Shown here one piece after another: positions 44,711 to 62,422 of a DNA stretch of 64,000 nt (position 1 is its first letter; the number at the start of each line of letters is the position of its first letter). The notes beneath the pieces are model-generated. The model had not been told where the DNA came from. It saw nothing but the letters and a program-made list of their open reading frames with translations, and made no database searches. Made by a program: the position numbers and the translations under genes. Source of the DNA: Salipiger sp. H15 (GTDB taxonomy: Bacteria; Pseudomonadota; Alphaproteobacteria; Rhodobacterales; Rhodobacteraceae); assembly GCF_040409955.1 (NCBI RefSeq), contig NZ_CP123385.1:727501-791500 (forward strand), given 5' to 3'.

Positions 44711-44733
44711 CAGAGGGACTCTCGCGAGGGGAA

Positions 44734-44768
44734 GGTCCCGCGCCGGGGTCAGGCCCGGGCGCGGGACC
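44734..44768 (-). terminator. Intergenic hairpin between dctP and dctQ
   Basis: GGTCCCGCGCC (44734-44744) pairs perfectly with 44758-44768 (11 bp, 13-base loop). Hairpins at this place commonly stabilise the binding-protein message or cut readthrough into the permeases. Confidence 0.6.
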
Positions 44769-44780
44769 GGTCACGTCCGG

Positions 44781-45812: not shown

Positions 45813-45875
45813 GGTTCCTCCCAAGGTTGCGGGCCTCCTCCGGACCCGTCCGAGGCGATCCTCGGCGATTGCCAG

Positions 45876-45903
45876 CGATGATTCAAATACTGTTAAATCA
45901 TCG
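45876..45903. promoter_or_regulatory. Operator candidate ahead of the TRAP operon
   Basis: CGATGATT (45876-45883) and AATCATCG (45896-45903) are perfect 8-bp inverted arms with a 12-base AT-rich spacer, inside the 114-base gap between the LysR gene and dctP. It is a good candidate for the binding site of the LysR protein encoded just upstream. Confidence 0.6.
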
Positions 45904-45926
45904 TTGCGATACCTTTGCGGCATGGC

Positions 45927-46868
45927 TCAACGCCAGATGCCCGCCTCCACGAGCCCGCCGACGATGTCGCGCACCAGCGCCTCGACCACCTGGATCGCCT
46001 TCTTGCGGCGCTGGTCGGCCTTGGTGGCGGTGCAGAGCGTCCAGGCGATCTGCGGCTTCACGATCGGGCGCGCCTCGAGCGTGCCGTTCTGCACCTCCGA
46101 CAGCACGCCGCCATAGGTCAGGATGGTGAAGCCGTGGCCGTGGCGGACCAAGGATTTCAGGTGCCACACGCCGTCGACCCGCTGCACGATGTTGAGCTCG
46201 GCACCGATCTCGTCGGCGTGCTTGTCGACGAGGATGCGCAGGAAGTTCGGCCGGCTCGGCATGATCAGCGGCATCGCCGCCGCCTCGGCCAGCGTGTAGC
46301 TCTCCTTGTCGAACGCCCCGCAGGGGCCGATGACGTTGAGATGCTCGACCAGCAGCTCGGTCGCGACGATGTCCTCCCGCACCGGCGCGTCATGCATCAC
46401 CGCAAGGCCGATCTCGCCCTGCGAGAGCTTGTGCTCGAGCGCGTTCGAGAAGCCCTCGACGAAGCGCAGTTCGATCTCGGGGTATTCGGCCTTGACCCGC
46501 GAGAGCAGCGGCGGAGTGATGAACTCTCCCGGCGTCGGCGGCATGCCGACCACCACCACGCCCTGCGGCCGCTCGGCATGGGCGGTGACGTCGTGATGCG
46601 CCTGCGCGATCTGCGCCATGATCGCATAGGCCCGGCGCTGCAGGATCTCGCCCGCCTCGGTCAGCTCCATGCCGCGCGCGGTGCGGTTGAAGACCTTGAG
46701 CCCGAGGTCGCTCTCGAGCCGGGCGATCTGCCGGCTGAGCGCGGGCTGCGCGATGCGCAGCCGCTCCGAGGCGCGGGTCATGTTCTTTTCCTCCGCCACG
46801 CAGAGGAAGTAGCGCAAGGTGCGCAGCTCGGGCTGCCAGTCGCGCAGCGTGGTTCCGGTGTCGACCAA
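45927..46868 (-). CDS. LysR-family transcriptional regulator of the TRAP operon
   Basis: About 313 residues. The HTH (LRTLRYFLCVAEEKNMTRASE then AQPALSRQIARLESDLGL) is followed by a LysR effector domain. The start is uncertain: there is no ATG or GTG near the expected N-terminus, and I choose TTG 46868 next to GGGAGGGGGAGAG. It lies directly upstream of, and on the same strand as, dctP. Confidence 0.85.
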   Translation of the reverse strand: MVDTGTTLRDWQPELRTLRYFLCVAEEKNMTRASERLRIAQPALSRQIARLESDLGLKVFNRTARGMELTEAGEILQRRAYAIMAQIAQAHHDVTAHAERPQGVVVVGMPPTPGEFITPPLLSRVKAEYPEIELRFVEGFSNALEHKLSQGEIGLAVMHDAPVREDIVATELLVEHLNVIGPCGAFDKESYTLAEAAAMPLIMPSRPNFLRILVDKHADEIGAELNIVQRVDGVWHLKSLVRHGHGFTILTYGGVLSEVQNGTLEARPIVKPQIAWTLCTATKADQRRKKAIQVVEALVRDIVGGLVEAGIWR

Positions 46869-46885
46869 CTCTCCCCCTCCCCGGC

Positions 46886-47131
46886 TCAGTCGCCGGGCCG
46901 GGCCGGCTCGGTCACCGAAAGCGTGACGCACTCCAGCGTGGCGGGGCTCTCGGCCAAGAAAGGCGCGTCCGTCTCGATGCTGGTGCCAAGCGTGAGCCCG
47001 GCCTTATGGAACGCGTCCCCCACCGAATGCCTGAGCCCGTCCGAGGTAAGGCAGATCATGTGCGGGCTGTTGCCGATCGCGTTGAACGGGTCGAAGCGCA
47101 GGATCTCCGGGCGCGTGTCGCCGTAATGCAT
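46886..47131 (-). pseudogene. Internally deleted flavin-reductase-like remnant
   Basis: An 81-residue frame with a good ribosome site (GAGGAGGG) before ATG 47131. It reads like a DIM6/NTAB-type flavin reductase (FMN-binding split barrel) with the middle missing. The start MHYGDTRPEILRFDPFNAI joins the family's N-terminal DPFKAI region straight to its later FNAI...SSDGRKDS region (here SPHMICLTSDGLRHSV). A jump to the late ESPATLECV segment follows. A working enzyme is about 200 residues. It could still be expressed as a small protein. Confidence 0.55.
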
Positions 47132-47210
47132 GGTCCCTCCTCGGAATTGTCTCTGCCTTTCTAGGGGGAAGCGCGCCGGGATGGCCACCGGTTTCGGGCG
47201 GTCCTCGCCC

Positions 47211-48482
47211 TCAGCGGTCCAGCCGGTCGCGCAGGCGGTAGAAGCGGATCGCCGCGCCGCCGTAGACCCGGTGCAGCCCGTGCAGCGGCAGCGTGCGGAT
47301 CCGTGGCTCCGGCGGGATCGGCAGGGGAACGCCGCGGGCGAGGTACTCGGCCATCGCCTTGCCCAGCGCCACCGACAGCGCCACGCCCCGGCCGTTGAAC
47401 CCGGTGGCGGCCAGCATCCCCGGCGCGGGCTCGCCAAGCCGGATGCGGTGGTCGGGCGTCATCCCGACGCGGCCGAACCAGCGGTGCGCGATCCTGAAGC
47501 CGGTGCCGAAGAGCGCCGTGAACTCGGCCTCGAGCCCGGCGAAATCCGCCGCCGCGCGGGGCTCGCGGAAGCTGCCCCGCCCGCCGATCATCAGCCGGTT
47601 CTGCGGGCCGAGGCGGAAATAGGTCCCGACCCGGCGGATTTCCGAAACGCAGACGCCGCCCGGCAGGACACGCGCCAGCGCCTCCTCCGAAAGTGGCTCG
47701 GTGGCGATCTGGAAGCTGTGCGCCGGCACCACGGCGCGCGAGAGGTCGCGGTCGAGCGCCCCCGGCGTGTAGGCATTGGTGGCAAGGATCACCCGCTCGG
47801 CCCGGACCTCGATCCCGCCCGCCAGCCGGGCGCGCCAGCCGGTGCCGTCGCGCTCCAGCGCCGCGACCGGCGAGCGGGAATGCAGCCGCGCCCCGGCCTG
47901 CTGCGCCGCGCGGGCGAGCCCGTGGGCCAGCTTCAGCGGGTGCAGCTTTCCCGCCCGCCGGTCGCGCCAGCCGCCGTGAAAGCCCCGCGCCCCGGTCGCG
48001 TGCGCGATCTCGCCCGCGTCGAGCCAGTCCACGTCCGCCCCCCGCGCCTGCCACTGCGCCATGCGCGCCCGCAACCCCGCAAGGTGCACCGTCTTGTTGC
48101 CCGCCTGGATCCAGCCGCCGCGCTCCGCCTCGCAGTCGATGCCGAGCCGGTCCACCAACGCAAAGAGCGTGTCCGCCGTCGCGCCGGCGAAGGCCGTGGC
48201 CTCCGGCCCCCAGAGCGCGTCGAGCACGTCGGGATCATCCTTCAGCCCCGGGATCACCTGCCCGCCGTTGCGCCCCGAGGCACCGAAGCCCGGCTCCTCT
48301 GCCTCGAGCAGCAGCGTATCGACCCCGGCCTCGGCAAGGTGCAGCGCGCCCGAGAGGCCCTGGAACCCGCCACCGATCACCAGCACGTCCGCCCGGCATG
48401 ACTCGCCGAGCGGCAGCAGATCCGGCGCGGGCCCCGTGGTGGCGGCCCAGATCGAGTGGAGCGGGATCGGTGGGGTCGTCAT
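47211..48482 (-). CDS. FAD-dependent oxidoreductase, gamma-glutamylputrescine oxidase (PuuB/OrdL)-like
   Basis: A 423-residue DAO-family amine oxidase. The FAD motif VLVIGGGFQGLSGALHLAEAG lies at about residues 31-51, and ASGRNGGQVIPGL follows, typical of OrdL/PuuB. A late GFNGRGVALSVALGKAMAEY contacts FAD. It likely oxidises a secondary or gamma-glutamylated amine to the aldehyde. I take ATG 48482, six bases after GGAG, over the in-frame GTG at 48497. No glutamate-putrescine ligase gene is adjacent. Confidence 0.82.
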   Translation of the reverse strand: MTTPPIPLHSIWAATTGPAPDLLPLGESCRADVLVIGGGFQGLSGALHLAEAGVDTLLLEAEEPGFGASGRNGGQVIPGLKDDPDVLDALWGPEATAFAGATADTLFALVDRLGIDCEAERGGWIQAGNKTVHLAGLRARMAQWQARGADVDWLDAGEIAHATGARGFHGGWRDRRAGKLHPLKLAHGLARAAQQAGARLHSRSPVAALERDGTGWRARLAGGIEVRAERVILATNAYTPGALDRDLSRAVVPAHSFQIATEPLSEEALARVLPGGVCVSEIRRVGTYFRLGPQNRLMIGGRGSFREPRAAADFAGLEAEFTALFGTGFRIAHRWFGRVGMTPDHRIRLGEPAPGMLAATGFNGRGVALSVALGKAMAEYLARGVPLPIPPEPRIRTLPLHGLHRVYGGAAIRFYRLRDRLDR

Positions 48483-48738
48483 CTTGAACTCCGTCACAAG
48501 CGGGACATCACGCCCGGGGCGCGGATTTGCGCTTGGTCAACAGAAGCTTGCCGGGCCTTCGCCGGTCAAGGGGGTGCTGCGGCGCGGGCCTGCCCGCACG
48601 CTGCCGCGCCGCGCCGACGGGCGCATGGCTTAGGCTAAAACTACCTCATGCTGTTGAAGGAGTTTCTTTTCACTTACCAAACTCTGCGTCACCTTCCTGC
48701 ACAGAGACGCCCCCTGACCCGCATGGAAGGACGCAACG

Positions 48739-50007
48739 ATGCCCGTAGAAAGAACCGAGGCGCTGGTGATCGGCGCCGGCCAGGCCGGGATCGCGGCAAG
48801 CGAGCACCTGAGCGCGAACGGCATTCCACATATCGTTCTCGAGCGCAGCCGCATCGCCGAGCGTTGGCGCTCCGAGCGCTGGGACTCGCTGGTCGCCAAT
48901 GGCCCCGCCTGGCATGACCGTTTCCCCGGGCTCGAGTTTCCCGGCGACCCCGACGGCTTCGTGCCGAAGGAGCAGGTCGCCGACTATTTCGAGGCCTATG
49001 CGAGGCAGATCAATGCCCCCGTCCGCTGCGGTGTCACGGTCACCCGGGTGACCCGGCTTCGGGGCCGCCCGGGCTTCCTCGTCGAGACCTCCCAAGGCGC
49101 GATCGAGGCGCGGCAGGTGATCTCGGCCACCGGCGCCTTCCAGCATCCCGCGATCCCGCCGCTCGTGCCGCAGACCGCCGGGATCGCCCAGATGCATTCG
49201 AGCCAGTACCGCAACCCCGCCCAGCTGGCCGAGGGCGCGGTGCTGGTGGTCGGCGCGGGCTCCTCGGGCGTGCAGATCGCGGACGAGCTGCTGGCGGCCG
49301 GGCGCAAGGTCTACCTGTCGGTCGGCCCGCACGACCGCCCGCCGCGCGCCTACCGTGGCCGCGACTTCGTCTGGTGGCTGGGCGTCCTGAACAAGTGGGA
49401 CGCCGAGGCGACCCCCTCTTCCGAGCACACCACCATCGCGGTCAGTGGCGCCCATGGCGGGCACACGGTCGACTTCCGCAAGCTCGCCGCCCGCGGTATG
49501 GTGCTGCTCGGCCGGACCGAGAGCTTCGCCGGGGGCCGCTTCAGCTTCGCGCCGGATCTGGCGCGCAACATCGAGGCGGGGGATGCCAATTACCTGTCGC
49601 TGCTCGACGAGGCCGACGCCTATGTCGCGGCCAACGGGCTGGACCTGCCCGAGGAGCCCGAGGCGCGCCGGATCGGCCCCGCCCCCGCCTGCATGACCGA
49701 TCCGATCCTGTCGCTGGACCTCGCCGGGGCCGGGATCACCACGATCCTCTGGGCGACGGGTTTCACCAGCGATTACGGCTGGCTGCAGGTGGATGCGCTC
49801 GACGCGGCGGGCAAGCCCCGTCACCAGCGCGGCGTCTCGCCGGTGCCCGGGCTCTATTACCTCGGCCTGCCCTGGCAGACCCGGCGCGGCTCGTCCTTCA
49901 TCTGGGGGGTCTGGCACGACGCGAAATACGTCGCCGACCACATCGCCAAGCAGCGCGGCTATCTCGCCTATACGCCGGCGGTCCAGCCCGAGCCCGAGAT
50001 GGCCTGA
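48739..50007 (+). CDS. Flavin-containing monooxygenase-like NAD(P)/FAD oxidoreductase
   Basis: A 422-residue flavoprotein of the CzcO/YUCCA-like FMO group. The FAD motif is VIGAGQAGI (residues 10-18). An FMO-like signature is GAFQHPAIPPLVPQ, and the NADPH motif VVGAGSSGVQIADELL lies at about 168-183. ATGFTSDYGWL near the C-terminus is also typical. It may oxygenate an amine or carbonyl intermediate. It opens a rightward cluster with an aldehyde dehydrogenase and an amine dehydrogenase. AAGGA precedes the ATG. Confidence 0.85.
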   Translation: MPVERTEALVIGAGQAGIAASEHLSANGIPHIVLERSRIAERWRSERWDSLVANGPAWHDRFPGLEFPGDPDGFVPKEQVADYFEAYARQINAPVRCGVTVTRVTRLRGRPGFLVETSQGAIEARQVISATGAFQHPAIPPLVPQTAGIAQMHSSQYRNPAQLAEGAVLVVGAGSSGVQIADELLAAGRKVYLSVGPHDRPPRAYRGRDFVWWLGVLNKWDAEATPSSEHTTIAVSGAHGGHTVDFRKLAARGMVLLGRTESFAGGRFSFAPDLARNIEAGDANYLSLLDEADAYVAANGLDLPEEPEARRIGPAPACMTDPILSLDLAGAGITTILWATGFTSDYGWLQVDALDAAGKPRHQRGVSPVPGLYYLGLPWQTRRGSSFIWGVWHDAKYVADHIAKQRGYLAYTPAVQPEPEMA

Positions 50008-50114: not shown

Positions 50115-51596
50115 ATGCAGACCCTCTCTCACTACACCTCCCGCGCCGCCGCGCTGACCTTCCGCACCCAGGCTTGGATCGACGGGCGTTATGTGCCCTC
50201 CGCCTCGGGCGCGCGGTTCGAGACCGTGAACCCCGCCACCGCCGAGGTGCTGACCGACGTCGCGCGCGGCGGCGCGGAGGACATCGACCGCGCCGTAGCC
50301 GCCGCCCGCCGCGCCTTCGACGACCGCCGCTGGGCCGGCAAGACGCCGGGCGAGCGCAAGGAAGTGCTGCTGCGGCTCGCGGCCCTCCTGCGCGAGAACC
50401 TCGAGGAATTCGCCCTTTTGGACACGCTCGACATGGGCAAGCCGATCTGGGAGACGGTCAACGTCGACGCCCCCGGCTCGGCGCATTTCTTCCAGTGGCA
50501 CGCCGAGGCGATCGACAAGCTCTACGACGAGGTCGCCCCGACCGGCGGGCGCGATCTCGCGCTGATCCGCCGCGTGCCGCTTGGCGTCGTCGGCGCGGTG
50601 GTGCCGTGGAACTTCCCCCTCGACATGGCGACGTGGAAGCTGGCCCCGGCCCTGGCGGCGGGCAATTCGGTGGTGCTGAAACCCGCCGAGCAGTCGCCGC
50701 TCTCGGCGCTGCGCCTTGCGGAACTGGCCGCCGAGGCGGGGCTGCCCGATGGCGTGCTCAACGTGGTGCCGGGCTTCGGCGAGGATGCCGGGCAGGCGCT
50801 TGGCCGTCATCCGGACGTCGACTGCCTCGTCTTCACCGGCTCGACCGAGGTCGGCAAGATGTTCCAGCGCTACGCGGGCGAGAGCAACATGAAGCAGGTC
50901 TGGCTGGAGACCGGCGGCAAGAGCCCGAACCTCATCTTCGCCGATGCCGATCTCGACGCCGCCGCCGACAAGGCCGCCTTCGGCATCTTCTTCAACCAGG
51001 GCGAGGTCTGCTCGGCCAACTCGCGGATGCTGGTGCACGAGAGCATCGCGGCCGAGATGATCGACCGCATGAAGACCCGCGCCGAGGCCATCGTGCCGGG
51101 CAACCCGCTCGACCCCGAGACGAAGATGGGCGCCATGGTCGATGCCCGCCACGCCGCGCGGGTCGCGGAGTACCTCGCCTCGGGCAAGCAGCAGTGCCGC
51201 CTGATCGCGGGCGGCGCGCGGCTGACCCTCTGCGGCTCGGACGCCTTCATCCAGCCGACGGTCTTTGCCGACGTGCCGCGCGACGCGCGCATCGCCCGGG
51301 AAGAGATCTTCGGCCCGGTGCTGGCGATCCAGACCTTCCGCGACGAGGCCGAGGCCATCGCCATGGCCAATGACAGCATCTACGGCCTTGCCGCCTCGGT
51401 CTGGACGAAGGACCTGGGCCGCGCCATGGCGGTCTCGGACGCGCTGGTCGCGGGCACGGTCTCGGTCAACACGGTGGACGCGCTCTCGGCGATGACGCCC
51501 TTCGGCGGGATGAAGCAGTCGGGCTTCGGGCGGGACCTGTCGCTTCATTCCTTCGACAAGTACTCGGCGCTCAAGACCGTCTGGATCAGCTACTGA
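50115..51596 (+). CDS. Aldehyde dehydrogenase, PuuC-like
   Basis: A 493-residue NAD(P)-dependent aldehyde dehydrogenase. The catalytic set is complete: Asn166 in PWNFP, Glu265 in LETGG, Cys299 in NQGEVCSANSR. Overall it resembles gamma-glutamyl-gamma-aminobutyraldehyde or betaine-type aldehyde dehydrogenases. It would oxidise aldehydes released by the neighbouring amine oxidase or dehydrogenase. ATG 50115 is preceded by CCGGAG. Confidence 0.9.
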   Translation: MQTLSHYTSRAAALTFRTQAWIDGRYVPSASGARFETVNPATAEVLTDVARGGAEDIDRAVAAARRAFDDRRWAGKTPGERKEVLLRLAALLRENLEEFALLDTLDMGKPIWETVNVDAPGSAHFFQWHAEAIDKLYDEVAPTGGRDLALIRRVPLGVVGAVVPWNFPLDMATWKLAPALAAGNSVVLKPAEQSPLSALRLAELAAEAGLPDGVLNVVPGFGEDAGQALGRHPDVDCLVFTGSTEVGKMFQRYAGESNMKQVWLETGGKSPNLIFADADLDAAADKAAFGIFFNQGEVCSANSRMLVHESIAAEMIDRMKTRAEAIVPGNPLDPETKMGAMVDARHAARVAEYLASGKQQCRLIAGGARLTLCGSDAFIQPTVFADVPRDARIAREEIFGPVLAIQTFRDEAEAIAMANDSIYGLAASVWTKDLGRAMAVSDALVAGTVSVNTVDALSAMTPFGGMKQSGFGRDLSLHSFDKYSALKTVWISY

Positions 51597-51624: not shown

Positions 51625-51639
51625 TTAGGGACACCCTAA
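51625..51639. promoter_or_regulatory. TTAGG-N5-CCTAA operator, copy 1 (LysR promoter)
   Basis: TTAGG-GACAC-CCTAA lies 24 bases before the LysR start, inside a longer perfect TTAGGG-ACA-CCCTAA. The same 5+5+5 architecture recurs at 52669-52683 before the amine dehydrogenase gene. Its place fits autoregulation. Confidence 0.65.
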
Positions 51640-51662: not shown

Positions 51663-52604
51663 GTGCCCTTACGTTTCACGCTGCGCCAGATGGAGTATTT
51701 CGTCGCCGTGGGCGAGTGCGGCTCGATCGCGCTCGCCGCCGAGAAGGTGAACGTCTCCTCGCCCTCGATCTCCGCCGCGATCTCCCAGCTCGAGGCCGAG
51801 TTCGGCCTGCAGCTCTTCATCCGCCGCCACGCGCACGGGCTGGCGCTGACGCAGGGCGGCGCGCGCTTCATGACCGTGGCGAAGGAGCTCCTGGACAAGG
51901 CCGCCTCGCTCGGCGATCTGGCCAACGACATCTCGGGGCAGGTGCGCGGCCCGCTCAACGTCGGCTGCCTGCTGACCTTCGCGCAGATCGTCCTGCCGCA
52001 GCTGCGCCGCAGCTTCGTCGACACATGGCCCGAGGTCGAGTTCCGCCAGTTCGAGCGCGACCAGCAGGAGCTTTTCGACGGGCTGCGCTCGGCCCGCATC
52101 GACGTGGCGCTGACTTACGACCTGAACGTGCCCGCCGACCTCGAGTTCATCCCGCTGATCGAGCTGCCGCCCTTCGCGATCGTGCACGAGACCCACCCCC
52201 TTGCCGCGCTCGAGAGCGTCACCCCGGCCGAGCTGTCGGACTACCCGATGGTGCTGCTCGACCTGCCGATGAGCGGCGACTATTTCCTGTCCTTCTTCAC
52301 CAAGCTCGGGATCACCCCGATGATCGCCGAGCGCACCCGCGACATCGCGGTGATGCGCTCGCTGGTGGCCAACGGCTTCGGCTACGGCATGGGCAACACC
52401 CACCCGGTCACCGAGCTTGCCCCGGACGGACGCCGCCTGCGCTTCATCCCGATGACCGGCCCGGCGCGCAGCCTGAACCTCGGCCTCATGATGAGCGAGG
52501 GCGCCCGCGGCTCGCGCACCGTCCGCGCCTTCATCGAGCACGCGCAGTCCGAGATTACCGAGACCCGCGCGCCCGGCCTGCAGGTCCGGCCAAGGGGCGC
52601 ATGA
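51663..52604 (+). CDS. LysR-family transcriptional regulator of the amine cluster
   Basis: A 313-residue regulator. The HTH region (FTLRQMEYFVAVGECGSIA, then SPSISAAISQLEAEFGLQLF) is followed by a LysR effector domain. The GTG start at 51663 follows GGAGGAAGAC. It stands between the aldehyde dehydrogenase and the amine dehydrogenase genes, and both its own leader and that of the dehydrogenase carry TTAGG-N5-CCTAA. It is the obvious candidate regulator of amine catabolism and uptake here. Confidence 0.9.
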   Translation: MPLRFTLRQMEYFVAVGECGSIALAAEKVNVSSPSISAAISQLEAEFGLQLFIRRHAHGLALTQGGARFMTVAKELLDKAASLGDLANDISGQVRGPLNVGCLLTFAQIVLPQLRRSFVDTWPEVEFRQFERDQQELFDGLRSARIDVALTYDLNVPADLEFIPLIELPPFAIVHETHPLAALESVTPAELSDYPMVLLDLPMSGDYFLSFFTKLGITPMIAERTRDIAVMRSLVANGFGYGMGNTHPVTELAPDGRRLRFIPMTGPARSLNLGLMMSEGARGSRTVRAFIEHAQSEITETRAPGLQVRPRGA

Positions 52605-52667: not shown

Positions 52668-52684
52668 ATTAGGATTGGCCTAAT
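52668..52684. promoter_or_regulatory. TTAGG-N5-CCTAA operator, copy 2 (amine dehydrogenase promoter)
   Basis: ATTAGG-ATTGG-CCTAAT is a perfect 6-bp inverted repeat with a 5-base spacer, about 93 bases upstream of the dehydrogenase start, in an AT-rich stretch. It matches copy 1 in both arms and spacing. Confidence 0.65.
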
Positions 52685-52776: not shown

Positions 52777-54840
52777 GTGCGAAACCCCAGCTACGATATT
52801 CTGTTCGAACCCGCCAAGATCGGTCCGCTCACCGCGAAGAACCGGTTCTACCAGGTGCCGCATTGCAATGGCGGCGGCTATCGCGATCCGTCGGCCGTGG
52901 CGGCGATGCGCGGCATCAAGGCCGAGGGCGGCTGGGGCGTGATCTTCACCGAGCAGACCGAGATGCACCACACCTCGGAGATCACCCCGTTCATCGAGCT
53001 GCGGCTCTGGGACGACGCCGACATCCCCGCCCTGCGCCGCATGTCCGACGCGATGAAGACCCGGGGCGCGCTCGCGGGCATCCAGCTCGCCTACTCGGGT
53101 ATCAACGGGCCGAACCTCTACACCAAGGAAGTGCCCCTCGCCCCGTCCGCGCTGCCGATCCGCACCTTCACCAACGACCCGGTGCAGGCCCGCGCGATGG
53201 ACAAGACCGACATCCGCAACCTGCGGCGCTGGTTCGTCAACGCAGCCAAGCGCTCGAAGCTGGCGGGGTTCGACCTGATCTGCCTCTACGGCGCGCATGG
53301 TTTCGGCATCTTCCAGCACTTCCTGTCGCGCGCCACCAACCAGCGCAGCGATGAATACGGCGGCTCGCTGGAGAACCGCGCGCGCTTCGTCAACGAGGTG
53401 ATCGCCGACATGCGCGACGCCGTGGGTGACACCATGGGCCTGACGCTGCGGGTCAGCCTCGACGAGACCATCGGCAAGCTCGGCTTCTCCAACGCCGAGC
53501 TGCGCGAGTTCATCGAGATGAACGCCGACCTGCCCGACCTCTGGGATCTGGCGCAGGGCACCTGGGAGGATTGCTCGGGCCCGTCGCGCTTCAAGGAAGA
53601 GGCGGCACAGGAGGTGCTGGTGAGCGGCATCCGCGCGCTGACCTCGAAGCCGGTGGTCGGCGTCGGCCGCTTCACCTCGCCCGACGTGATGGCGCGCCTC
53701 GTCAAGCAGGGCGTGCTCGACTTCATCGGCTGCGCCCGCCCGTCGATCGCTGATCCCTTCCTGCCCAAGAAGATCGAGGAAGGCCGGATCGAGGACATCC
53801 GCGAATGCATCGGCTGCAACATCTGCATCACCGGCGACATGACCATGTCAATCAGCCGCTGCACGCAGAACCCCACCTTCATGGAAGAGTGGCGCAAGGG
53901 CTGGCACCCCGAGAAGATGAATACCAAGGGCGAGAGCTCGAACGTGCTCATCGTCGGCGCCGGTCCCGCCGGGCTCGAGGCAGCGCGCGCGCTCAGCCTG
54001 CGCGGCTATGACGTGGCGCTGGCCGAGGCGGGCACCGAGCTTGGCGGCCGCGTCGCCCGCGAGCGGCTGCTGCCGGGCCTGTCCGCCTGGGGCCGGGTGG
54101 TGGACTACCGCACCTACCAGCTCTCGCAGCGCCCGAACGCCGAGACCTATTTCGACAGCCGCCTCTCGGCGCAGGAGATCCTAGAGTTCGGCTTCGAGAA
54201 CGTCTGCATCGCCACCGGCGCCCGCTGGCGTGCCGATGGCGTCTCGCGCCAGCACGTGGTGCCGATGCCCGCCGATCCCGCGATGCCGGTCTTCACCCCC
54301 GATGACATCATGGCGGGCAAGCTGCCGAAGGGCGAGGTCGTGCTCTTCGACGACGATCACTACTACATGGGCGGCGTCATCGCCGAGCTGCTGGCCAAGG
54401 CGGGCTGCACCGTGACCTTCGTCACCCCCTCGGCCTATGTCTCGGACTGGACGCTCAACACGCTCGAGCAGGCGGCGATCCACCGCCGGCTGGTCGAGGC
54501 CGGCGTGAAGATCGTGCTCAACACCGGCATCGCCGCGCTGAAGGCCGGCGAGGTGGTGACCGAATGCACCTACACCGGCCAGACCTCGGCACTTGGCTGC
54601 GACGCGGTGGTGATGGTCGCCTCGCGGATCTCGGACGATGCGCTCTACCACGAGCTGATGTCGCGCGAGGCCGAGTGGGCCGACGCGGGGATCAGGTCGG
54701 TCAAGCTGATCGGCGACGCCGCCGCGCCGGGCCCCATCGCCTGGGCGACCTACGCCGGCCACCGCTACGCCCGCGAGCTCGACATGCCCGACATCGGCGA
54801 TGCGCTGCCGTTCCGACGCGAGGTCGCGCAGCTCGCCTAA
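52777..54840 (+). CDS. Amine dehydrogenase of the trimethylamine/histamine dehydrogenase family
   Basis: A 687-residue FMN, 4Fe-4S and nucleotide-fold flavoprotein. NRFYQVPHC puts Cys30 exactly where TMADH carries its 6-S-cysteinyl FMN. The cluster cysteines are 344, 347, 350 and 362. Catalytic-site Tyr171 and His174 (YGAHG) are kept. The substrate-bowl positions read Gln60, Trp256 and Asp354, where TMADH has Tyr60, Trp264 and Trp355. From memory, Gln/Trp/Asp is the histamine dehydrogenase pattern, favouring a primary amine or diamine. The product would be an aldehyde plus ammonia, with electrons passing to an ETF or similar carrier. GTG start after AAGGAG. A Pot-type importer follows. Confidence 0.85.
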   Translation: MRNPSYDILFEPAKIGPLTAKNRFYQVPHCNGGGYRDPSAVAAMRGIKAEGGWGVIFTEQTEMHHTSEITPFIELRLWDDADIPALRRMSDAMKTRGALAGIQLAYSGINGPNLYTKEVPLAPSALPIRTFTNDPVQARAMDKTDIRNLRRWFVNAAKRSKLAGFDLICLYGAHGFGIFQHFLSRATNQRSDEYGGSLENRARFVNEVIADMRDAVGDTMGLTLRVSLDETIGKLGFSNAELREFIEMNADLPDLWDLAQGTWEDCSGPSRFKEEAAQEVLVSGIRALTSKPVVGVGRFTSPDVMARLVKQGVLDFIGCARPSIADPFLPKKIEEGRIEDIRECIGCNICITGDMTMSISRCTQNPTFMEEWRKGWHPEKMNTKGESSNVLIVGAGPAGLEAARALSLRGYDVALAEAGTELGGRVARERLLPGLSAWGRVVDYRTYQLSQRPNAETYFDSRLSAQEILEFGFENVCIATGARWRADGVSRQHVVPMPADPAMPVFTPDDIMAGKLPKGEVVLFDDDHYYMGGVIAELLAKAGCTVTFVTPSAYVSDWTLNTLEQAAIHRRLVEAGVKIVLNTGIAALKAGEVVTECTYTGQTSALGCDAVVMVASRISDDALYHELMSREAEWADAGIRSVKLIGDAAAPGPIAWATYAGHRYARELDMPDIGDALPFRREVAQLA

Positions 54841-54899: not shown

Positions 54900-55973
54900 A
54901 TGACACGCGGAAAGGCCGTAGAAGTCTTCAACGTCTCGAAACGCTTCGGCGACTACCAGGCGCTCGACCACGTCGATTTCACCATTCACGAGAACGAGTT
55001 CTTCACGCTGCTCGGGCCCTCGGGCTGCGGCAAGACCACCTTGCTGCGGATGATCGCCGGCTTCGAGACCCCGACCGAGGGCGCCATCGTGCTCTTCGGG
55101 CAGGAGATCGACCGCCTGCCCGCGCACAAGCGCCACGTGAACACCGTGTTCCAGAGCTACGCGCTCTTTCCGCACATGTCGCTCGAACAGAACATCGCCT
55201 TCGGCCTCGAGAACCTTGGCTGGGACAAGGCGCGGCGGCAGGCCCGCGTCGCCGAGATGCTCGAGCTGGTGCACATGACAGCCTTCGCCAGCCGCCGCCC
55301 CGACCAGCTCTCGGGCGGCCAGCGCCAGCGCATCGCGCTCGCCCGCGCGCTTGCCCCCGAGCCCAAGGTGCTGCTGCTCGACGAGCCGCTCTCGGCGCTC
55401 GACCTGAAGCTGCGGCAGGCGATGCGCGACGAGCTGCGCGCGCTGCAACGCAAGACCGGCATCACCTTCATCTTCGTCACCCACGACCAGGAAGAGGCGC
55501 TCGACATGTCCGACCGCATCTGCGTGCTGGGACAGGGCCGGGTGCAGCAGATCGGCACCCCCGCCGAGATCTACGAGGAGCCCGAGAACCGCTTCGTCGC
55601 CGACTTCATCGGCGAGACCAACTTCCTCGACGCCGAGGTGATCTCGCTCGACGGTGCCCGCGCCCGCATCCGCACGCCGCTGGGGCTGGAGTTCGACGCG
55701 GCGCAGAAGGGGCTCACCGGCACCGGGCCCGCCACCCTGTCGCTGCGCCCCGAGAAGATCGGGCTGCAGGACCAGGCCGTCGGCAACGTGATGACCGGCA
55801 CCATCCGGGCGCGAAACTACATGGGCGGCTACACGCATTTCGTCGTCGAGACCGGCGGCGCGAGCCTGCGCGTCTCACGCCGCAACGCGGTCAGCCAGGC
55901 GGAGACGCTCGCCGTCGGCAGCGAGGTCCGGCTCGGCTTCCGCGACGAGGCGGTGCGGGTGCTGGCGCGATGA
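54900..55973 (+). CDS. Spermidine/putrescine-type ABC ATPase, PotA-like
   Basis: A 357-residue ATPase: Walker A GPSGCGKT (residues 39-46), signature LSGGQRQR (137-144), Walker B VLLLDEPLSALD, His switch FVTHD, then a TOBE domain. It energises the importer formed with the next three genes. The stop overlaps the permease start (ATGA). The gene order A-B-C-D is the same as in enterobacterial potABCD, but the ligand is not proven to be a polyamine. Confidence 0.93.
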   Translation: MTRGKAVEVFNVSKRFGDYQALDHVDFTIHENEFFTLLGPSGCGKTTLLRMIAGFETPTEGAIVLFGQEIDRLPAHKRHVNTVFQSYALFPHMSLEQNIAFGLENLGWDKARRQARVAEMLELVHMTAFASRRPDQLSGGQRQRIALARALAPEPKVLLLDEPLSALDLKLRQAMRDELRALQRKTGITFIFVTHDQEEALDMSDRICVLGQGRVQQIGTPAEIYEEPENRFVADFIGETNFLDAEVISLDGARARIRTPLGLEFDAAQKGLTGTGPATLSLRPEKIGLQDQAVGNVMTGTIRARNYMGGYTHFVVETGGASLRVSRRNAVSQAETLAVGSEVRLGFRDEAVRVLAR

Positions 55974-56833
55974 GCGGCTTCCGCGTCTGGGGGCTCGTCC
56001 CCGCCTGGGTGCTGATGCTGGCGACGCTGATGGTGCCGCTGCTGATCGTCGCCGCCGTCTCGGTGGCCGAGCGCGGCGCCTACGGCGGCTTTGCCTGGGA
56101 CTTCAACCCGCTCTCCTACCGCGAGATCCTGTTCAGCGAGGACTGGGACGGCAACCTTGCCTTCGATGCCAAGTACCTCGCGATCATCGGACGCACGCTG
56201 CTGCTCGCCGGCGCCACGACGCTGATCTGCATGGCGCTGTCGCTGCCGGTGGCCTACGTGATCGCCACCCGCCCGCCGAAGACCAAGGCGCTGCTGATCT
56301 ACCTCGTCACCCTGCCCTTCTGGGTGTCGATGATCGTGCGCGTCTACGCCTGGCTGATCATCCTCGGCAACGAGGGCTTCGTCGGCCGCTTCTGGCAGTG
56401 GATCGGCGGCGAGGGCACGCTGCTCTTCACCCCCGGCGCGATGCTGGTGGGCATGGTCTACAGCTACATCCCGCTGATGGTGCTGCCGGTCTTCGCCGCG
56501 ATCGAGAAGCTCGACCCGGCGCTGCTGGAAGCGGGCGCCGACCTCTACGCCAGCCGCTGGACCACGGCGCGCCGGGTGATCCTGCCGCTGACCTGGCCCG
56601 GCCTCGCAGCCGGGGCGGTGCTGGTCTTCGTGCCGGCGCTCGGCACGGTGCTCGAGCCGATGCTGCTCGGCGGCGGCAAGCAGATGACCATGGGCACGCT
56701 GATCCAGACCCAGTTCGGCGGCGCGCGCAACTGGCCCTTCGGGGCGGCGGTGGCGCTGGTGCTCATGGCGATGGTGGTGCTCGTGCTGATGGTCAACGCC
56801 CGCCGCGCGATGCGCCGGGAGGCCCGGACATGA
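55970..56833 (+). CDS. Spermidine/putrescine-type ABC permease, PotB-like
   Basis: A 287-residue inner-membrane permease with six hydrophobic helices (LPFWVSMIVRVYAWLIILG is a PotB/PotH hallmark) and the EAA loop LLEAGADLYASRWTTARRV. ATGA overlaps tie it to the ATPase before and the PotC-like permease after. Confidence 0.92.
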   Translation: MSGFRVWGLVPAWVLMLATLMVPLLIVAAVSVAERGAYGGFAWDFNPLSYREILFSEDWDGNLAFDAKYLAIIGRTLLLAGATTLICMALSLPVAYVIATRPPKTKALLIYLVTLPFWVSMIVRVYAWLIILGNEGFVGRFWQWIGGEGTLLFTPGAMLVGMVYSYIPLMVLPVFAAIEKLDPALLEAGADLYASRWTTARRVILPLTWPGLAAGAVLVFVPALGTVLEPMLLGGGKQMTMGTLIQTQFGGARNWPFGAAVALVLMAMVVLVLMVNARRAMRREART

Positions 56834-57630
56834 GCGCGCCGCACAACGTCCGCCACTACCCCGGCGCGGGGCTGGTCACCTGGGTGTTCTTCCTCTGGCT
56901 CTACGCCCCGATCGTGGTGGTGGTCTGGTTCTCGTTCAACGAGAACCGCCTCGTCTCGGTCTGGACCGGCTTCTCGACCCGCTGGTACGAGGCCGCGCTC
57001 AGCAACAAGGCCCTGCTCGAGGCGCTGCGTGTCTCTCTGGTCGTGGCGGTCACCGCCACGCTGGTTGCGACGCTGGTGGCGCTCTCCGCCGCCATGGTGC
57101 TCAGCCGCAACGAGACCATGCGCTTCCGCCGCCTGTCCGAGACGGTGGTGAACCTGCCGCTGCTGCTGCCCGAGATCGTCGTCGCCGTGGCCTCGCTGAT
57201 CCTCTTCTCGCAGCTCGGGTTCTCGAACGGCATGGCGCGGCTCATCGTGGCGCATTCCGCCTTCTGCACGCCCTTCGCCTTCCTGCCGATCCGCGCCCGC
57301 CTGCAGGGCATGAGCCGCGATTACGAGGAGGCCGCCAAGGACCTCTACGCCGCGCCCTTCACCGCCTTCCGGCGGGTGACGCTGCCGCTGATCCTGCCCG
57401 GCGTCTTCGCCGGGGCGATGCTGGCCTTCGTCATCTCGATGGACGATTTCATCACCTCGAACCTGCTCGCCACCGGCGGCACCACGACGCTGCCGGTCTA
57501 CATCTTCGGCCTGATCAAGCAGGGCACCACGCCCGAGCTCAACGCGATCTCGACCCTGCTGATCCTCGCCTCGCTCATCATCGCGACCTTTGCGCTGGTC
57601 CTCTCGGCCCGGTCGATGCGGCGCGGCTGA
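56830..57630 (+). CDS. Spermidine/putrescine-type ABC permease, PotC-like
   Basis: A 266-residue permease (YAPIVVVVWFSFNENRLVSVW near the start, EEAAKDLYAAPFTAFRRV EAA loop, FVISMDDFITSNL near the end, all typical of PotC/PotI). It pairs with the PotB-like subunit. The binding-protein gene follows after 28 bases with its own AGGAGAG site. Confidence 0.92.
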   Translation: MSAPHNVRHYPGAGLVTWVFFLWLYAPIVVVVWFSFNENRLVSVWTGFSTRWYEAALSNKALLEALRVSLVVAVTATLVATLVALSAAMVLSRNETMRFRRLSETVVNLPLLLPEIVVAVASLILFSQLGFSNGMARLIVAHSAFCTPFAFLPIRARLQGMSRDYEEAAKDLYAAPFTAFRRVTLPLILPGVFAGAMLAFVISMDDFITSNLLATGGTTTLPVYIFGLIKQGTTPELNAISTLLILASLIIATFALVLSARSMRRG

Positions 57631-57658: not shown

Positions 57659-58678
57659 ATGAAACCCAAGACCCTCCTCGGCGCGGCCACCGCCGTCGCC
57701 CTTGCCCTGCCCGCCTACGCGGACGGCACGCTCAACCTCTACACCTGGTCGGATTCCATCTCGCCCGAGCTGATCGAGAAGTTCGAGGCGCAGACCGGCA
57801 TCACCGTCAACACCGACGGCTTCAACTCGAACGAGGACGCGCTGACCAAGCTGCAGGCGGGTTCGTCGGGCTATGACATCGTCACCCCCTCGCAGCACTT
57901 CGTGAAGATCATGATCGACGAGGGCCTGCTCGAGGACATCGGCGCCAAGGATCTCGCCGCCTACGCGCAGGTGGACGACAAGTGGAAGGGCCAGTGGTGG
58001 GACCCCGAGAACGCCTACTCGATCCCCCTCGCCTACGGCACCGCCGGTTTCGCGGTGAACCGCGACGTCTACGAGGGCCCCGTCGACAGCTGGGCGGTCT
58101 ACTTCACCCCGCCCGCCGACCTGAAGGGCAAGGTCGCCTCGCTCTCCTACCCGGACGAGGTGGTGGGCGCGGCGCAGCTCTTCCTCGGCGTGCCCTTCTG
58201 CTCGGAGGACAAGGCCGAGATGAAGAAGGTCTATGACCTGCTGATGGCGCAGAAGCCCGACGTCGCCGCCTACAGCTCGGACAATATCGAGAACCGCCTC
58301 GGCACCGCCGAGGTCGGCGCGCATTTCTGGTGGGACGGCAACGTGCTGAAGACCCGCAACGACGGCGCGAACATCGTCTACGCCGAGCCCAAGGAAGGCC
58401 TCGTCGGCTGGCTCGACAGCTTCGTCGTGCCGAAGGGCGCGGCCAACGTCGAGGGGGCCAAGCAGTTCATCGACTTCATGTCCGAGGAAGAGAACGCGAC
58501 GATCCAGTACAACTACTACGCCCATTCCTCGCCGGTGAAGCTCGACCTGACCAAGGCGAAGTACACGCCCGAGAACGCGCCCGAGCTCTTCCCGACGGTG
58601 CCGGTCGAATTCTCCAAGGCCTGCTCGCCCGCCGCGCAGGACCTCGTGACCAAGGTCTGGACCGACCTGCTGAAGTAA
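57659..58678 (+). CDS. Spermidine/putrescine-type substrate-binding protein, PotD-like
   Basis: A 339-residue periplasmic protein with a Sec signal (cleavage near AYADG, about residue 21). LNLYTWSDSISPELIEKFEA and YDIVTPSQHFVKIMIDEGLL match PotD/PotF proteins, and SYPDEVVGAAQLFLG and FWWDGN supply binding-cleft acid and aromatic residues. It is the last subunit of a full importer. Placement beside an amine dehydrogenase suggests a mono- or diamine ligand. Confidence 0.92.
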   Translation: MKPKTLLGAATAVALALPAYADGTLNLYTWSDSISPELIEKFEAQTGITVNTDGFNSNEDALTKLQAGSSGYDIVTPSQHFVKIMIDEGLLEDIGAKDLAAYAQVDDKWKGQWWDPENAYSIPLAYGTAGFAVNRDVYEGPVDSWAVYFTPPADLKGKVASLSYPDEVVGAAQLFLGVPFCSEDKAEMKKVYDLLMAQKPDVAAYSSDNIENRLGTAEVGAHFWWDGNVLKTRNDGANIVYAEPKEGLVGWLDSFVVPKGAANVEGAKQFIDFMSEEENATIQYNYYAHSSPVKLDLTKAKYTPENAPELFPTVPVEFSKACSPAAQDLVTKVWTDLLK

Positions 58679-58744: not shown

Positions 58745-60391
58745 ATGCCCCAGATCATCGAGATCCACGACGCCCGCGACATCCACAGCGCCGAGCCGGT
58801 CTCGCTGCGCCTCGAGGATGGCCGCATCGCATGGATCGGCACGCCCGGCACCCTGCCCGAGGGCCCGGCCCCCGACCGGCGCATCGAGGCGGACGGGCTC
58901 TGGGTCTCGCCCGGCTTCTGCGACAGCCACCTGCACCTCTTCCAGGGCGGCGTGACGCTGGGCCAGCTCAACCTCTTCGGCATCTCGACCCGCGACGACT
59001 TCGCCGCCGCGCTGGCCAGCTACCGCGTCGGCCGCGAGGCGTCGCCGCTGCTCTGCGCCATCTCGGCCAATTACGAGATCCTCGGCCCCGGCACCCGCCC
59101 CGACCGCCACGCGCTCGACGCGCTGCTGCCGGACCAGCCGCTGATGGTCTACGCCGTAGACCTGCACACCGCCTGGGCCAACACCGCCGCGCTGACCGCC
59201 GCCGGGCTGATGGACAGGGTGCCCGAGGTGAAGAACGCCGAGATCGTGCTCGGGGCAGACGGCAAGCCCAGCGGCGAGCTGCGCGAGGGCAATGCCATGC
59301 GCCTCGTCGGCCGGCTCTCGGCCCATGGCGGGCGCGACAATGCCGCCATGGCGGGCGACGAGCCCGGAGAGGTGACCGAAGCCGACCGCGCCGCCGACAA
59401 GGCCGCCATCGCCGCCGCCCTCGCCGCCTGCGCCGGCCACGGCATCACCACCGCGGTCAACATGGACGGCAACCTCTACCAGGCCGAGCTGCTGTCGGAG
59501 ATGGAGCGCGACGGCGCGCTGCCGATCCGCGTTTCGCTGGCGATGCGCCTCTCGCCCGCGCATGACGAGGCGCGCATCGCCGAACTGATCGAGGCGGCGA
59601 CGCGCGAGGGCAGCGACAAGCTCTCCTTCGGGCGGATCAAGATGTTCCTCGACGGCGTCTTCGACACCTGGACCGCCTACCGCACCGACGACTACCCGGA
59701 CCGGCAGGGCTTCCGCAGCGAGCCGCTCTTCGCGCCGGAACGCTTCACCGCGCTCTGCGAGACGGCGGACGCGAAGGGGCTGCAGATCCAGGTGCATTGC
59801 GTCGGCGACGCCGCCGTGCGCACCGCGCTCGACGGCTACGAGGCCGCGCGCAGGGCCAACGGCCTCCGCGACTCGCGCCACCGCGTCGAGCATATCGACA
59901 TGCTTCACCCGGACGACCTCGCCCGCTTCGCGGCGCTCGACGTTGTCGCCTCGATGCAGCCGGTGCACCCGCCGGGCTCCAGCGGCCTGCCGCTCGAACC
60001 CACCGTCTCGATCATGGGCCGGGGCCGCTGGCAGGACACCTTCCCGTGGAAGACCCTTCAGGACGCCGGGGCCACGCTCGCCTTCGGCACCGACTGGCCG
60101 ACCGCGCCGCTCTCGCCCTTCAACGCCATCCACTCGGCCCTCGCGCGCCAGCCCTGGGCCGAGGACCTGCCCGACCAGCGCCTGCCCTTCGAGGCGGTGA
60201 TCGACGCCTACACCAAGGGCGGCGCCCACGCGCTCTTTGCCGAAGGGACGCGCGGCGCGCTGCAGCCGGGCATGGCGGCGGACATTGTCCTGCTCGAGGG
60301 CGATCCGCGCGCGCTGCTCGGCCGCACGGACGCCTGCCGCGCCCGCCTCACCATCTGCGACGGCGCCATCGTGCACGAGGCGGCCGCGTGA
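58745..60391 (+). CDS. Amidohydrolase, YtcJ-like (Amidohydro_3)
   Basis: A 548-residue metal-dependent hydrolase. GFCDSHLHLF gives His62 and His64 of the metal site, HRVEHIDML and GTDWPTAPLSP provide later ligands, and GMAADIVLLEGDP closes the small beta domain. Family members hydrolyse amide or ester bonds of small molecules. Located between an amine importer and an ArgE-like deacylase, it may release an amine from an acylated or carbamoylated precursor; this is inference. Its stop shares one base with the next start. Confidence 0.82.
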   Translation: MPQIIEIHDARDIHSAEPVSLRLEDGRIAWIGTPGTLPEGPAPDRRIEADGLWVSPGFCDSHLHLFQGGVTLGQLNLFGISTRDDFAAALASYRVGREASPLLCAISANYEILGPGTRPDRHALDALLPDQPLMVYAVDLHTAWANTAALTAAGLMDRVPEVKNAEIVLGADGKPSGELREGNAMRLVGRLSAHGGRDNAAMAGDEPGEVTEADRAADKAAIAAALAACAGHGITTAVNMDGNLYQAELLSEMERDGALPIRVSLAMRLSPAHDEARIAELIEAATREGSDKLSFGRIKMFLDGVFDTWTAYRTDDYPDRQGFRSEPLFAPERFTALCETADAKGLQIQVHCVGDAAVRTALDGYEAARRANGLRDSRHRVEHIDMLHPDDLARFAALDVVASMQPVHPPGSSGLPLEPTVSIMGRGRWQDTFPWKTLQDAGATLAFGTDWPTAPLSPFNAIHSALARQPWAEDLPDQRLPFEAVIDAYTKGGAHALFAEGTRGALQPGMAADIVLLEGDPRALLGRTDACRARLTICDGAIVHEAAA

Positions 60392-61494
60392 TGCTGGCGC
60401 GCATCGAGGAACTGCTGGCAACGCTCGTGGCCTTCCCGACCGTCTCGGCGGAGTCGAACCTCGCGCTGATCGACTGGGCCGAGGCGCATCTTTCGGACGC
60501 GGGCTTCGCCGTCACCCGCATCGCGGCGCAAGACGCGCCCAAGGCCGGGCTGCTGGCGAAATTCGGTGACGGCGACGGCGGCACGCTGCTTTCGGCCCAT
60601 ACCGATGTCGTGCCCGTCGCCGGGCAGCACTGGAGCCTCGATCCCTTCACCCTGACCCGGCGCGGCGAGCGCCTGCACGGGCGCGGCACCACCGACATGA
60701 AGGGCTTCGTCGCCTGCATCCTCGCGCTCGCCGAGACGCTGCGCGCCGCGCCCCCCGCCCGCCCGGTGAGCATCGCGCTCAGCTGGGACGAGGAGGTCGG
60801 CTGCCGCGGCATCCAGCAGATGATCGACCAGGTGCTCCCGGTGCTGGGCCGGCCAGACCTCTGCGTGGTCGGCGAGCCGACGCTGATGCGCCTCGGCACC
60901 GGCCACAAGGGCAAGGCGAGCTACCTTGCCACCTGCCGCGGCGAGCCCGGCCATTCCGCCATGGCGCCGCGCTTCACCAACGCGCTGCACCTCGCCGCCG
61001 ACCTGATCGCCGCGCTGCGCACCGAACAGTCCCGGCTCGCGGCCGAGGGCGCGCAGGACGAAGGCTACGACATTCCCTGCTCGACGGTCCATGCCGGCAA
61101 GATGCAGGGCGGCGTCGCGCTCAACATCGTGCCCGACCATGCCGAGGTCGCCTTCGAGATCCGCCACCTCGCGGCGGAGCGGACCGGGGATATCCTGGGA
61201 AACATCCGCTCTGGCCTGCCGGGCGGCATCGAGATCATTGAGACCGGCGCCTATCCCGGGCTCGACGCCGATCCGGCGCTGCCCGCGCTCCGTCGCCTCG
61301 CGGCGCTGCTGCCCGCCCCCGAACCGGTCAAGGTCTCCTACGGCACCGAGGCGGGGTTCTTCGCGGCACTCGGCATTCCCACCGTGGTCTGCGGCCCGGG
61401 CACCATGGACGACGGGCACCAGCCGGACGAATCCGTGGCGCGGGACCAGCTCGCGCTCTGCGCGGATGTGCTGCGCGGCCTGATCGACGGCTGA
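60391..61494 (+). CDS. M20-family deacylase, ArgE-like
   Basis: A 367-residue zinc peptidase/deacylase. Metal ligands are visible: His70 and Asp72 in SAHTDVVPV, Asp102 in GTTDMKG, and the catalytic acidic pair around Glu134-Glu135 (SWDEEVGCRG). The overall sequence is close to N-acetylornithine deacetylase, but the context is an amine-catabolism cluster rather than arginine synthesis. It may therefore deacylate an N-acylated amine or amino acid. It overlaps the amidohydrolase stop. Confidence 0.85.
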   Translation: MLARIEELLATLVAFPTVSAESNLALIDWAEAHLSDAGFAVTRIAAQDAPKAGLLAKFGDGDGGTLLSAHTDVVPVAGQHWSLDPFTLTRRGERLHGRGTTDMKGFVACILALAETLRAAPPARPVSIALSWDEEVGCRGIQQMIDQVLPVLGRPDLCVVGEPTLMRLGTGHKGKASYLATCRGEPGHSAMAPRFTNALHLAADLIAALRTEQSRLAAEGAQDEGYDIPCSTVHAGKMQGGVALNIVPDHAEVAFEIRHLAAERTGDILGNIRSGLPGGIEIIETGAYPGLDADPALPALRRLAALLPAPEPVKVSYGTEAGFFAALGIPTVVCGPGTMDDGHQPDESVARDQLALCADVLRGLIDG

Positions 61495-61557: not shown

Positions 61558-62223
61558 TCAGAAGTCGAGGTCGGCGTAATGCGCCGGCTGCGGGAATCCG
61601 GGGATCTGGTCGGCGAGGATCGAGCGGAAGGCCGGGCGCGACTTGATCTTGGCGTACCAGTCCTTGACCACCGCCGAGCGGTTCCAGTCCACGTCCGAGA
61701 TGTAGTCGAGCGACGACAGGTGCGCCGCCGCGGCGAAATCCGCCAGCGTCATCACGTCGCCCGCCAGCCAGCGCCGGTGGTCGAGCAGCCAGGCCATGTA
61801 GTCGAGGTGATACTTGATCGCCTTGGCGCCGGCCTTGACGTTGCTCGAGTCGGGAAAGCCCGCCTTCATGATCTTCTTGTTCACCCGCTCGTAGAGCAGC
61901 TTCGAAGTGACCTCGTGGTGGAACTTGTCGTCGAACCACGACACCAGACGGCGCACCTCGTAGCGCGAGTCGGCCGAACGCGGCATCAGCGACGGCTCGG
62001 GGTATTTCTCCTCGAGCCATTCGCAGATCGCGGCGCTTTCCGACATGGTCTTGTTGTCGATCTTCAGCACCGGGACCTTGCCCGCGGGGTTGCGGCGCAG
62101 GAAGTCGGCATCCTGCTCCCAGTAGCGCTCCTCGACCAACTCGCATTCGATCTTCTTCTCGGCGAGGCTCAGGCGAACCTTGCGGCAAAAGGGCGAGAGC
62201 GGCACGTGGTAAAGCTTTGCCAT
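61558..62223 (-). CDS. Glutathione S-transferase-family protein
   Basis: A 221-residue GST. LSPFCRKVRLSLAEKK carries the likely catalytic Ser or Cys, and NPAGKVPVLKIDNKTMSES is the glutathione loop. The C-terminal helical half ends FPQPAHYADLDF. I choose ATG 62223 for family length, although no clear ribosome site precedes it; the frame extends to 62292. It stands alone with no operon partner. Confidence 0.85.
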   Translation of the reverse strand: MAKLYHVPLSPFCRKVRLSLAEKKIECELVEERYWEQDADFLRRNPAGKVPVLKIDNKTMSESAAICEWLEEKYPEPSLMPRSADSRYEVRRLVSWFDDKFHHEVTSKLLYERVNKKIMKAGFPDSSNVKAGAKAIKYHLDYMAWLLDHRRWLAGDVMTLADFAAAAHLSSLDYISDVDWNRSAVVKDWYAKIKSRPAFRSILADQIPGFPQPAHYADLDF

Positions 62224-62422
62224 TCGGGGAGGCGGCTCCGGGTCTTGAGGGAATTGTCCTGCCTGTTTGCCGTGAAAATCGCGCCGATTCAACAGGGCAT
62301 GCGGACACGGGCGGGTGATGGCCGGGACGGCGCGGAAAGAGGGGGGCTCCGCCCCCGCGGCGCCGCTGCGCGGCGCGCTCCCCCGGCGTAATTCGAAAGA
62401 GAAGAAGGGCGCGCCGCCGCGG

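Follow-up and report, generated by a model that had tools for sequence, protein, structure and literature searches.

Gene content of the locus

The window, i.e. the whole stretch of 64,000 nucleotides of Salipiger sp. H15 DNA that was analysed, carries a dehydrogenase gene among genes for a monooxygenase, an aldehyde dehydrogenase, a LysR regulator, an ABC importer and two hydrolases, together with copies of a short palindrome:

48630..48644, no strand: one-mismatch variant of the TTAG-N7-CTAA site, 109 bp upstream of the monooxygenase start
48739..50007, + strand: flavin monooxygenase, proposed imidazoleacetate monooxygenase (HinF role; NCBIfam, Pfam, neighbourhood)
50115..51596, + strand: aldehyde dehydrogenase, proposed imidazole acetaldehyde dehydrogenase (HinD role; PF00171)
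51625..51639, no strand: TTAG-N7-CTAA palindrome without mismatch, upstream of the LysR gene
51663..52604, + strand: LysR regulator, HinK-like, proposed imidazoleacetate sensor (PDB matches)
52669..52683, no strand: TTAG-N7-CTAA palindrome without mismatch, 108 bp upstream of the dehydrogenase start
52777..54840, + strand: probable histamine dehydrogenase, with 6-S-cysteinyl-FMN and 4Fe-4S by homology (ORF, structure match, aligned residues)
54900..55973, + strand: PotA-type ATPase (TIGR01187 over cut-off; start deduced from the reading frame)
55970..56833, + strand: PotB-type permease (ORF and position; start deduced)
56830..57630, + strand: PotC-type permease (ORF and position)
57659..58678, + strand: PotD/PotF-like substrate-binding protein (PDB matches)
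58745..60391, + strand: Amidohydro_3 metal-dependent hydrolase (PF07969)
60391..61494, + strand: M20 ArgE-like deacylase, proposed formylaspartate deformylase (HinG role; start deduced)

The monooxygenase has FMO-like and Pyr_redox domains, its best NCBIfam model being TIGR04046 at a score under the cut-off, and its gene is separated by 107 bp from that of the aldehyde dehydrogenase, for which PuuC and then BADH score best in NCBIfam, both under cut-off. The LysR protein finds its best PDB matches in 6m5f (HinK) and 3fzv (199 bits), the next match reaching 94 bits. HinK is described in the available passages of PMC8231116 as the regulator that responds to imidazole-4-acetate in Pseudomonas histamine catabolism. 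The Pot-type importer which a preliminary description of this DNA had placed beside the dehydrogenase was recovered, PotA and PotD by family or structure matches, PotB and PotC by position; the PotD-like protein matches PDB entry 4gl0 at 1.4e-43, followed by putrescine- and spermidine-binding proteins. As for the M20 protein, it scores over the cut-offs of both TIGR01892 and NF005710.

No RidA or DUF1028 gene lies at the window cluster itself, both being found elsewhere in the same genome. Family searches detected no HinC-type aminotransferase among the scanned cluster genes, and the cluster holds PotABCD instead of an APC-type permease of the HinA kind. The Amidohydro_3 gene (58745-60391) overlaps the M20 gene and is found nearby in 15 of the best 80 of 590 loci of relatives. 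On the other strand, the region 42882-48497 encodes a TRAP transporter, a LysR protein and a DAO-type oxidase; this region is probably a separate unit, since no more than 3 of the best 80 of 590 loci have the DAO gene nearby. Beyond the cluster, glutathione transferase-like and choloylglycine hydrolase-like genes occupy 61558-63604 on the minus strand.

The dehydrogenase and its substrate pocket

The ORF at 52777-54840 encodes 687 amino acids from a GTG start preceded by AAGGAG; according to Pfam, an Oxidored_FMN domain precedes the Rossmann-type domains. Its nearest PDB structure is 6DE6, to which residues 1 to 686 align at 1322 bits and E = 0, which excludes chance; the Nocardioides simplex enzyme (3K30) follows with 844 bits and trimethylamine dehydrogenase with 531 bits, so that the protein is nearer to the characterised histamine dehydrogenases than to the latter. 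The structure 6DE6 is that of a Rhizobium sp. histamine dehydrogenase (Rsp HDH), whose active-site residues are given in the available text of PMC10180351. By these matches, the product is very probably a histamine dehydrogenase; this enzyme as such is already known, and what is new is the proposed regulon variant in which it appears here.

At the cofactor sites, the protein has Cys30, which we take to carry the cysteinyl-FMN, and C344, C347, C350 and C362, aligned with the Fe-S cysteines of trimethylamine dehydrogenase and presumably ligands of the 4Fe-4S cluster. With Tyr171 and His174 also present, the preliminary description was right on the conserved Cys30, Fe-S cysteines and catalytic Tyr/His. 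The aromatic bowl of trimethylamine dehydrogenase is made of Tyr60, Trp264 and Trp355, which are not matched by the Gln60, Trp263 and Asp354 of the window protein. Of the bowl residues named beforehand, Gln60 and Asp354 were thereby borne out, but Trp256 was mistaken: it exists as another residue, and the bowl tryptophan is Trp263, as in Rsp HDH (available text of PMC10180351).

All pocket positions in the list available from PMC10180351 are identical in the alignment, in keeping with the earlier assignment to the histamine dehydrogenase set: besides those already mentioned, Ile69, Phe72, Glu74, Asn110, Phe131, Ala173, Gly175, Phe176, Arg225, Thr262, Asp265 and Met355 are shared, and Leu567 of Rsp HDH corresponds to Leu563 of the window protein, offset by a four-residue gap. 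Among 81 aligned sequences (the window protein and those of the best 80 of 590 loci), C30, Q60, E74, N110, F131, Y171, H174, F176, R225, W263, D354 and M355 are invariant, while I69 (80/81), F72 (79/81), D265 (74/81) and T262 (64/81) vary. A Sinorhizobium meliloti relative with 54% identity has E60, A72, H110 and L131, yet keeps W263 and D354; two of the three residues put forward in the preliminary description are therefore non-diagnostic, and Gln60, Phe72, Asn110 and Phe131 appear to carry the weight as markers of a histamine-type pocket.

Compared with known enzymes, the window protein shares with that of Rhizobium sp. 4-9 (6DE6) the full-length match, the start, the pocket and the catalytic triad including Asp265. 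With the Nocardioides simplex enzyme (3K30) it has in common the family, the cofactor residues and the bowl Gln and Asp, but the triad Asp of the latter lies one position later (W-E-G-D vs. W-E-D). The likeness to trimethylamine dehydrogenase (1DJN, 2TMD) comprises the family, Cys30, the aligned Fe-S cysteines and the triad Tyr and His.

An identity as trimethylamine or dimethylamine dehydrogenase was rejected on the bowl residues and the scores (1322 vs. 531 bits). A biogenic amine rather than trimethylamine had been suggested as substrate, and this is supported by the closest PDB entry as well as by the residues of the pocket and the surrounding genes.

Conservation of the neighbourhood among relatives

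One genome per species was scanned, and the best 80 of 590 confirmed stretches were analysed, a sample which favours close relatives; flanks are shortened in 13 of the 80 loci. Within these best 80 of 590, the dehydrogenase gene has near it a monooxygenase in 68 loci, a LysR gene in 68, RidA in 63, DUF1028 in 63, an M20 gene in 54 and an aldehyde dehydrogenase of at least 60% identity in 45, and all four Pot genes are nearby in 19. Monooxygenase, RidA and DUF1028 genes occur together within 10 kb in 61/80. In 49 of these 61 loci, they lie on one strand in the order monooxygenase-RidA-DUF1028, which is the published hinF-L-H order, and in the other 12 they are not on one strand; the gaps in this order are below 300 bp in 34 loci, and RidA and DUF1028 stand between the monooxygenase and the aldehyde dehydrogenase in 29.

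Several plasmids carry variants of this arrangement. The order monooxygenase-RidA-DUF1028-ArgE was found on Ideonella and Burkholderia plasmids, the former with a 62.6% identical dehydrogenase about 9 kb from the set. On a Leisingera plasmid, the order is monooxygenase-RidA-DUF1028-ALDH-LysR-dehydrogenase-dodecin-ArgE with four ABC importer genes behind it, and on that of Rhizobium gallicum, which encodes an 81% relative, it is monooxygenase-LysR-ALDH-dehydrogenase-RidA-DUF1028-M20-PotABCD-Amidohydro_3. The dodecin gene, directly 3' of the dehydrogenase in Leisingera methylohalidivorans, is at L118:11082-11288.

Within 8 kb flanks of the 54% S. meliloti relative, no monooxygenase, RidA, DUF1028, HinK-like LysR or M20 gene was detected at 1e-15, and weak PotA (31%), aldehyde dehydrogenase (37.5%) and TRAP matches were present. 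The other superfamily members of the Salipiger genome (L001, L003, L004) have no hin-type genes within their loci, which at about 4 kb each make a weak control.

RidA and DUF1028 genes at other loci

In the Salipiger genome, a monooxygenase-RidA-DUF1028 set lies about 180 kb downstream of the window cluster (C2:964402-966809), the RidA/DUF1028 pair at G000:C2:965703-966809 standing beside a second monooxygenase. Contig 4 carries a RidA-DUF1028-LysR set with a third monooxygenase some 7.5 kb off. This region (L092, G000:C4:284000-303000) also holds a Pot-type transporter and, named by eye, glutathione transferase-like and quinone oxidoreductase-like genes; it gave no histamine dehydrogenase match, and its set perhaps serves another imidazole compound.

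Among relatives, DUF1028 is not nearby in 17 of the best 80 of 590 loci, and all 17 genomes have a match: 14 a full-length copy outside the flanks (50-94% identity) and three a fragment at a contig end, at least one of these fragments (L039) being on the dehydrogenase's own contig. As for the monooxygenase, which is not nearby in 12 of the same 80 loci, seven genomes have a full copy, two have fragments at contig ends and three have no close copy anywhere in the genome. Three near relatives (L103, L104, L105) keep the separate monooxygenase-RidA-DUF1028 set with 85-98% protein identity, and in a further locus (L106) RidA and DUF1028 are conserved, the monooxygenase being a 67% relative about 6 kb away.

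A candidate operator of the HinK-like regulator

A dyad count covered the upstream regions of the dehydrogenase (180 bp) and the monooxygenase (220 bp). TTAG-N7-CTAA is the top dyad for the dehydrogenase and joint top for the monooxygenase; once similar regions had been thinned out, it ranks first among palindromic dyads for both (29/60 with the next at 14, and 24/57 with the next at 10, respectively). Among the best 80 of 590 loci, the 180 bp preceding the gene contain the exact form in 43/80 cases for the dehydrogenase, 30/69 for the monooxygenase and 27/49 for PotA, and in 9/68 for LysR, 1/44 for the aldehyde dehydrogenase and 1/33 for M20. If up to one mismatch is allowed over the same distance and loci, these values become 62/80, 52/69, 27/49, 14/68, 1/44 and 1/33. 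Random pieces gave 73/5000 for the exact form and 112/5000 with at most one mismatch.

In the Salipiger genome as a whole, the exact palindrome occurs seven times vs. 14 for a reversed control pattern, i.e. less often than the control, and two of the seven sites (51625 and 52669) are in the window cluster; the genome has no copy of the extended form TTAGNNNNNNNCTAAG. A site with one mismatch precedes the distant monooxygenase-RidA-DUF1028 set. Seven stretches from relatives carry a separately located monooxygenase, and all seven have a site of no more than one mismatch, exact in two, within about 165 bp before this gene; the Leisingera and Rhizobium gallicum plasmid stretches contain the exact form twice each. 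Even with one mismatch allowed, no site was found in the 250 bp before the Acetobacter, Ideonella, Thioclava and Burkholderia plasmid clusters, nor in the 300 bp before the contig-4 genes. HinK recognises a T-N11-A form according to the available part of PMC10912698; TTAG-N7-CTAA contains T-N11-A, which is a general LysR form. The palindrome is put forward as a candidate operator that the HinK-like LysR protein may bind.

Co-occurrence across genomes

With presence defined as E 1e-270 or better, 43 of the 246 family genomes have the dehydrogenase (58-100% identity, one being cut by a contig end). A DUF1028 relative is present in 41/43 genomes with the dehydrogenase vs. 37/203 without it (Fisher 1.6e-22, shared ancestry ignored), and the monooxygenase in 42/43 vs. 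32/203 (Fisher 7e-26, shared ancestry likewise ignored). At the class level, 27 of 241 genomes match the dehydrogenase at E 1e-200; eight of these have one of at least 59% identity, the remaining matches showing 49-56%.

Comparison with the hin pathway and proposed route

The gene order in Pseudomonas putida is hinFLHG (PMC8231116, available passages), and the accessible text of PMC6467879 gives HinF as an FAD monooxygenase, HinL as an enamine deaminase, HinH as an amidase and HinG as EC 3.5.1.8, their respective accessions being AWA45229, AWA45230, AWA45227 and AWA45228. The present system resembles the Pseudomonas pathway (hinABCD, hinFLHG, hinK) in its HinK-like regulator and aldehyde dehydrogenase, and, on the Ideonella and Burkholderia plasmids, in the order monooxygenase-RidA-DUF1028-ArgE. 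For HinF, HinL and HinG, the flavin monooxygenase, the Rid family protein (in trans) and the M20 ArgE-like protein correspond by class only, and the proposed likeness to all four Hin proteins is one of class and order. The system differs in that a cysteinyl-FMN dehydrogenase stands in place of the aminotransferase HinC and a Pot ABC importer in place of the permease HinA; in the Salipiger genome, moreover, RidA and DUF1028 are at other loci. A protein search with the monooxygenase returned no name tying it to HinF among 120 listed of 7998 matches. DUF1028 is proposed as the HinH-type amidase from its position in the gene order; an Ntn-type hydrolase was considered, Thr2 being invariant in 63/63 DUF1028 proteins, and no fold is claimed, the predicted model (pLDDT 52.7) being too poor for fold comparison.

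On this basis, we propose, with a probability of about 0.82, that the cluster belongs to a HinK-type histamine-to-aspartate regulon in which the cysteinyl-FMN dehydrogenase replaces HinC and the Pot importer replaces HinA. The reactions are deduced from enzyme classes. The PotABCD-type system would import histamine, a substrate suggested by its place in the cluster, and the dehydrogenase would convert it to imidazole acetaldehyde and ammonia, electrons passing from the cysteinyl-FMN to the 4Fe-4S cluster and on to an acceptor. The aldehyde dehydrogenase would then yield imidazole-4-acetate, whose ring the flavin monooxygenase would oxidise; the RidA and DUF1028 proteins, acting in trans from G000:C2:965703-966809, may open and process the ring, and the ArgE-like hydrolase may release aspartate and formate. 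The HinK-like LysR protein would sense imidazoleacetate and bind the TTAG-N7-CTAA sites.

Extended to relatives, it is somewhat probable that histamine catabolism based on this dehydrogenase, under a TTAG-N7-CTAA-binding HinK-like regulator, is common in Rhodobacteraceae (43/246) and present in some Rhizobiales, being divided between two loci in the Salipiger/Alloyangia group, and that DUF1028 acts in imidazoleacetate degradation as its ring-opening or deimination amidase.

Kits for measuring histamine in food make use of histamine dehydrogenase (PMC8372101, available passages), which is treated as an isolated enzyme in the literature passages found. No title or abstract beginning describing this cluster, and no paper naming DUF1028, came out of the literature searched, which lacks most subscription journals. 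The cluster provides the enzyme with a likely natural pathway, importer, regulator and candidate operator, each of them testable, and DUF1028 with a proposed function; such a reading would replace generic annotations, e.g. 'flavoprotein involved in K+ transport'.

Alternative substrates

A main role in polyamine catabolism, with diamines or agmatine as the chief substrates of the enzyme and histamine a good one in the laboratory, is unlikely. PotABCD is present, with a PotD relative resembling polyamine-binding proteins, and Rsp HDH acts on agmatine and 1,3-diaminopropane at 10% and 13% of its histamine rate (available text of PMC10180351); the aldehyde dehydrogenase scores best against PuuC, but below cut-off, and of the scanned cluster genes only the transporter ATPase exceeds the cut-off of a polyamine-specific family. 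Taken alone, the importer leaves diamines open, whereas the HinK-like regulator and the hinFLHG-like genes, with the proposed imidazole-ring genes near the dehydrogenase in 61 of the best 80 of 590 loci, point to histamine.

Another imidazole amine, such as N-methylhistamine, could enter the imidazoleacetate route as the natural substrate, since an imidazole acetaldehyde as product is all that the neighbourhood suggests. Furthermore, the lower pathway may be fed from several sources, as the monooxygenase occurs in 32, and the DUF1028 relative in 37, of the 203 family genomes lacking the dehydrogenase. The pocket, however, is identical to that of an enzyme characterised on histamine, and we regard such a substrate as very unlikely. 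Scarcely any credence is given to a dehydrogenase of trimethylamine, dimethylamine, N-methylproline or a nicotine-derived amine: the fold family and cofactor residues are common with trimethylamine dehydrogenase, and an Agrobacterium relative (46% to the Rhizobium enzyme) acts on 6-hydroxypseudooxynicotine (PMC5500553, in the part available), but Gln60 replaces the bowl Tyr and Asp354 a bowl Trp, the scores are 1322 vs. 531 bits, and the ten scanned cluster genes include no known methylamine or nicotine gene.

Finally, an Acetobacter oryzoeni plasmid (L099) carries the order DUF1028-monooxygenase-ALDH-RidA-cytosine permease-GMC oxidoreductase-ArgE-LysR, which seems to be a version starting from an alcohol instead of an amine.
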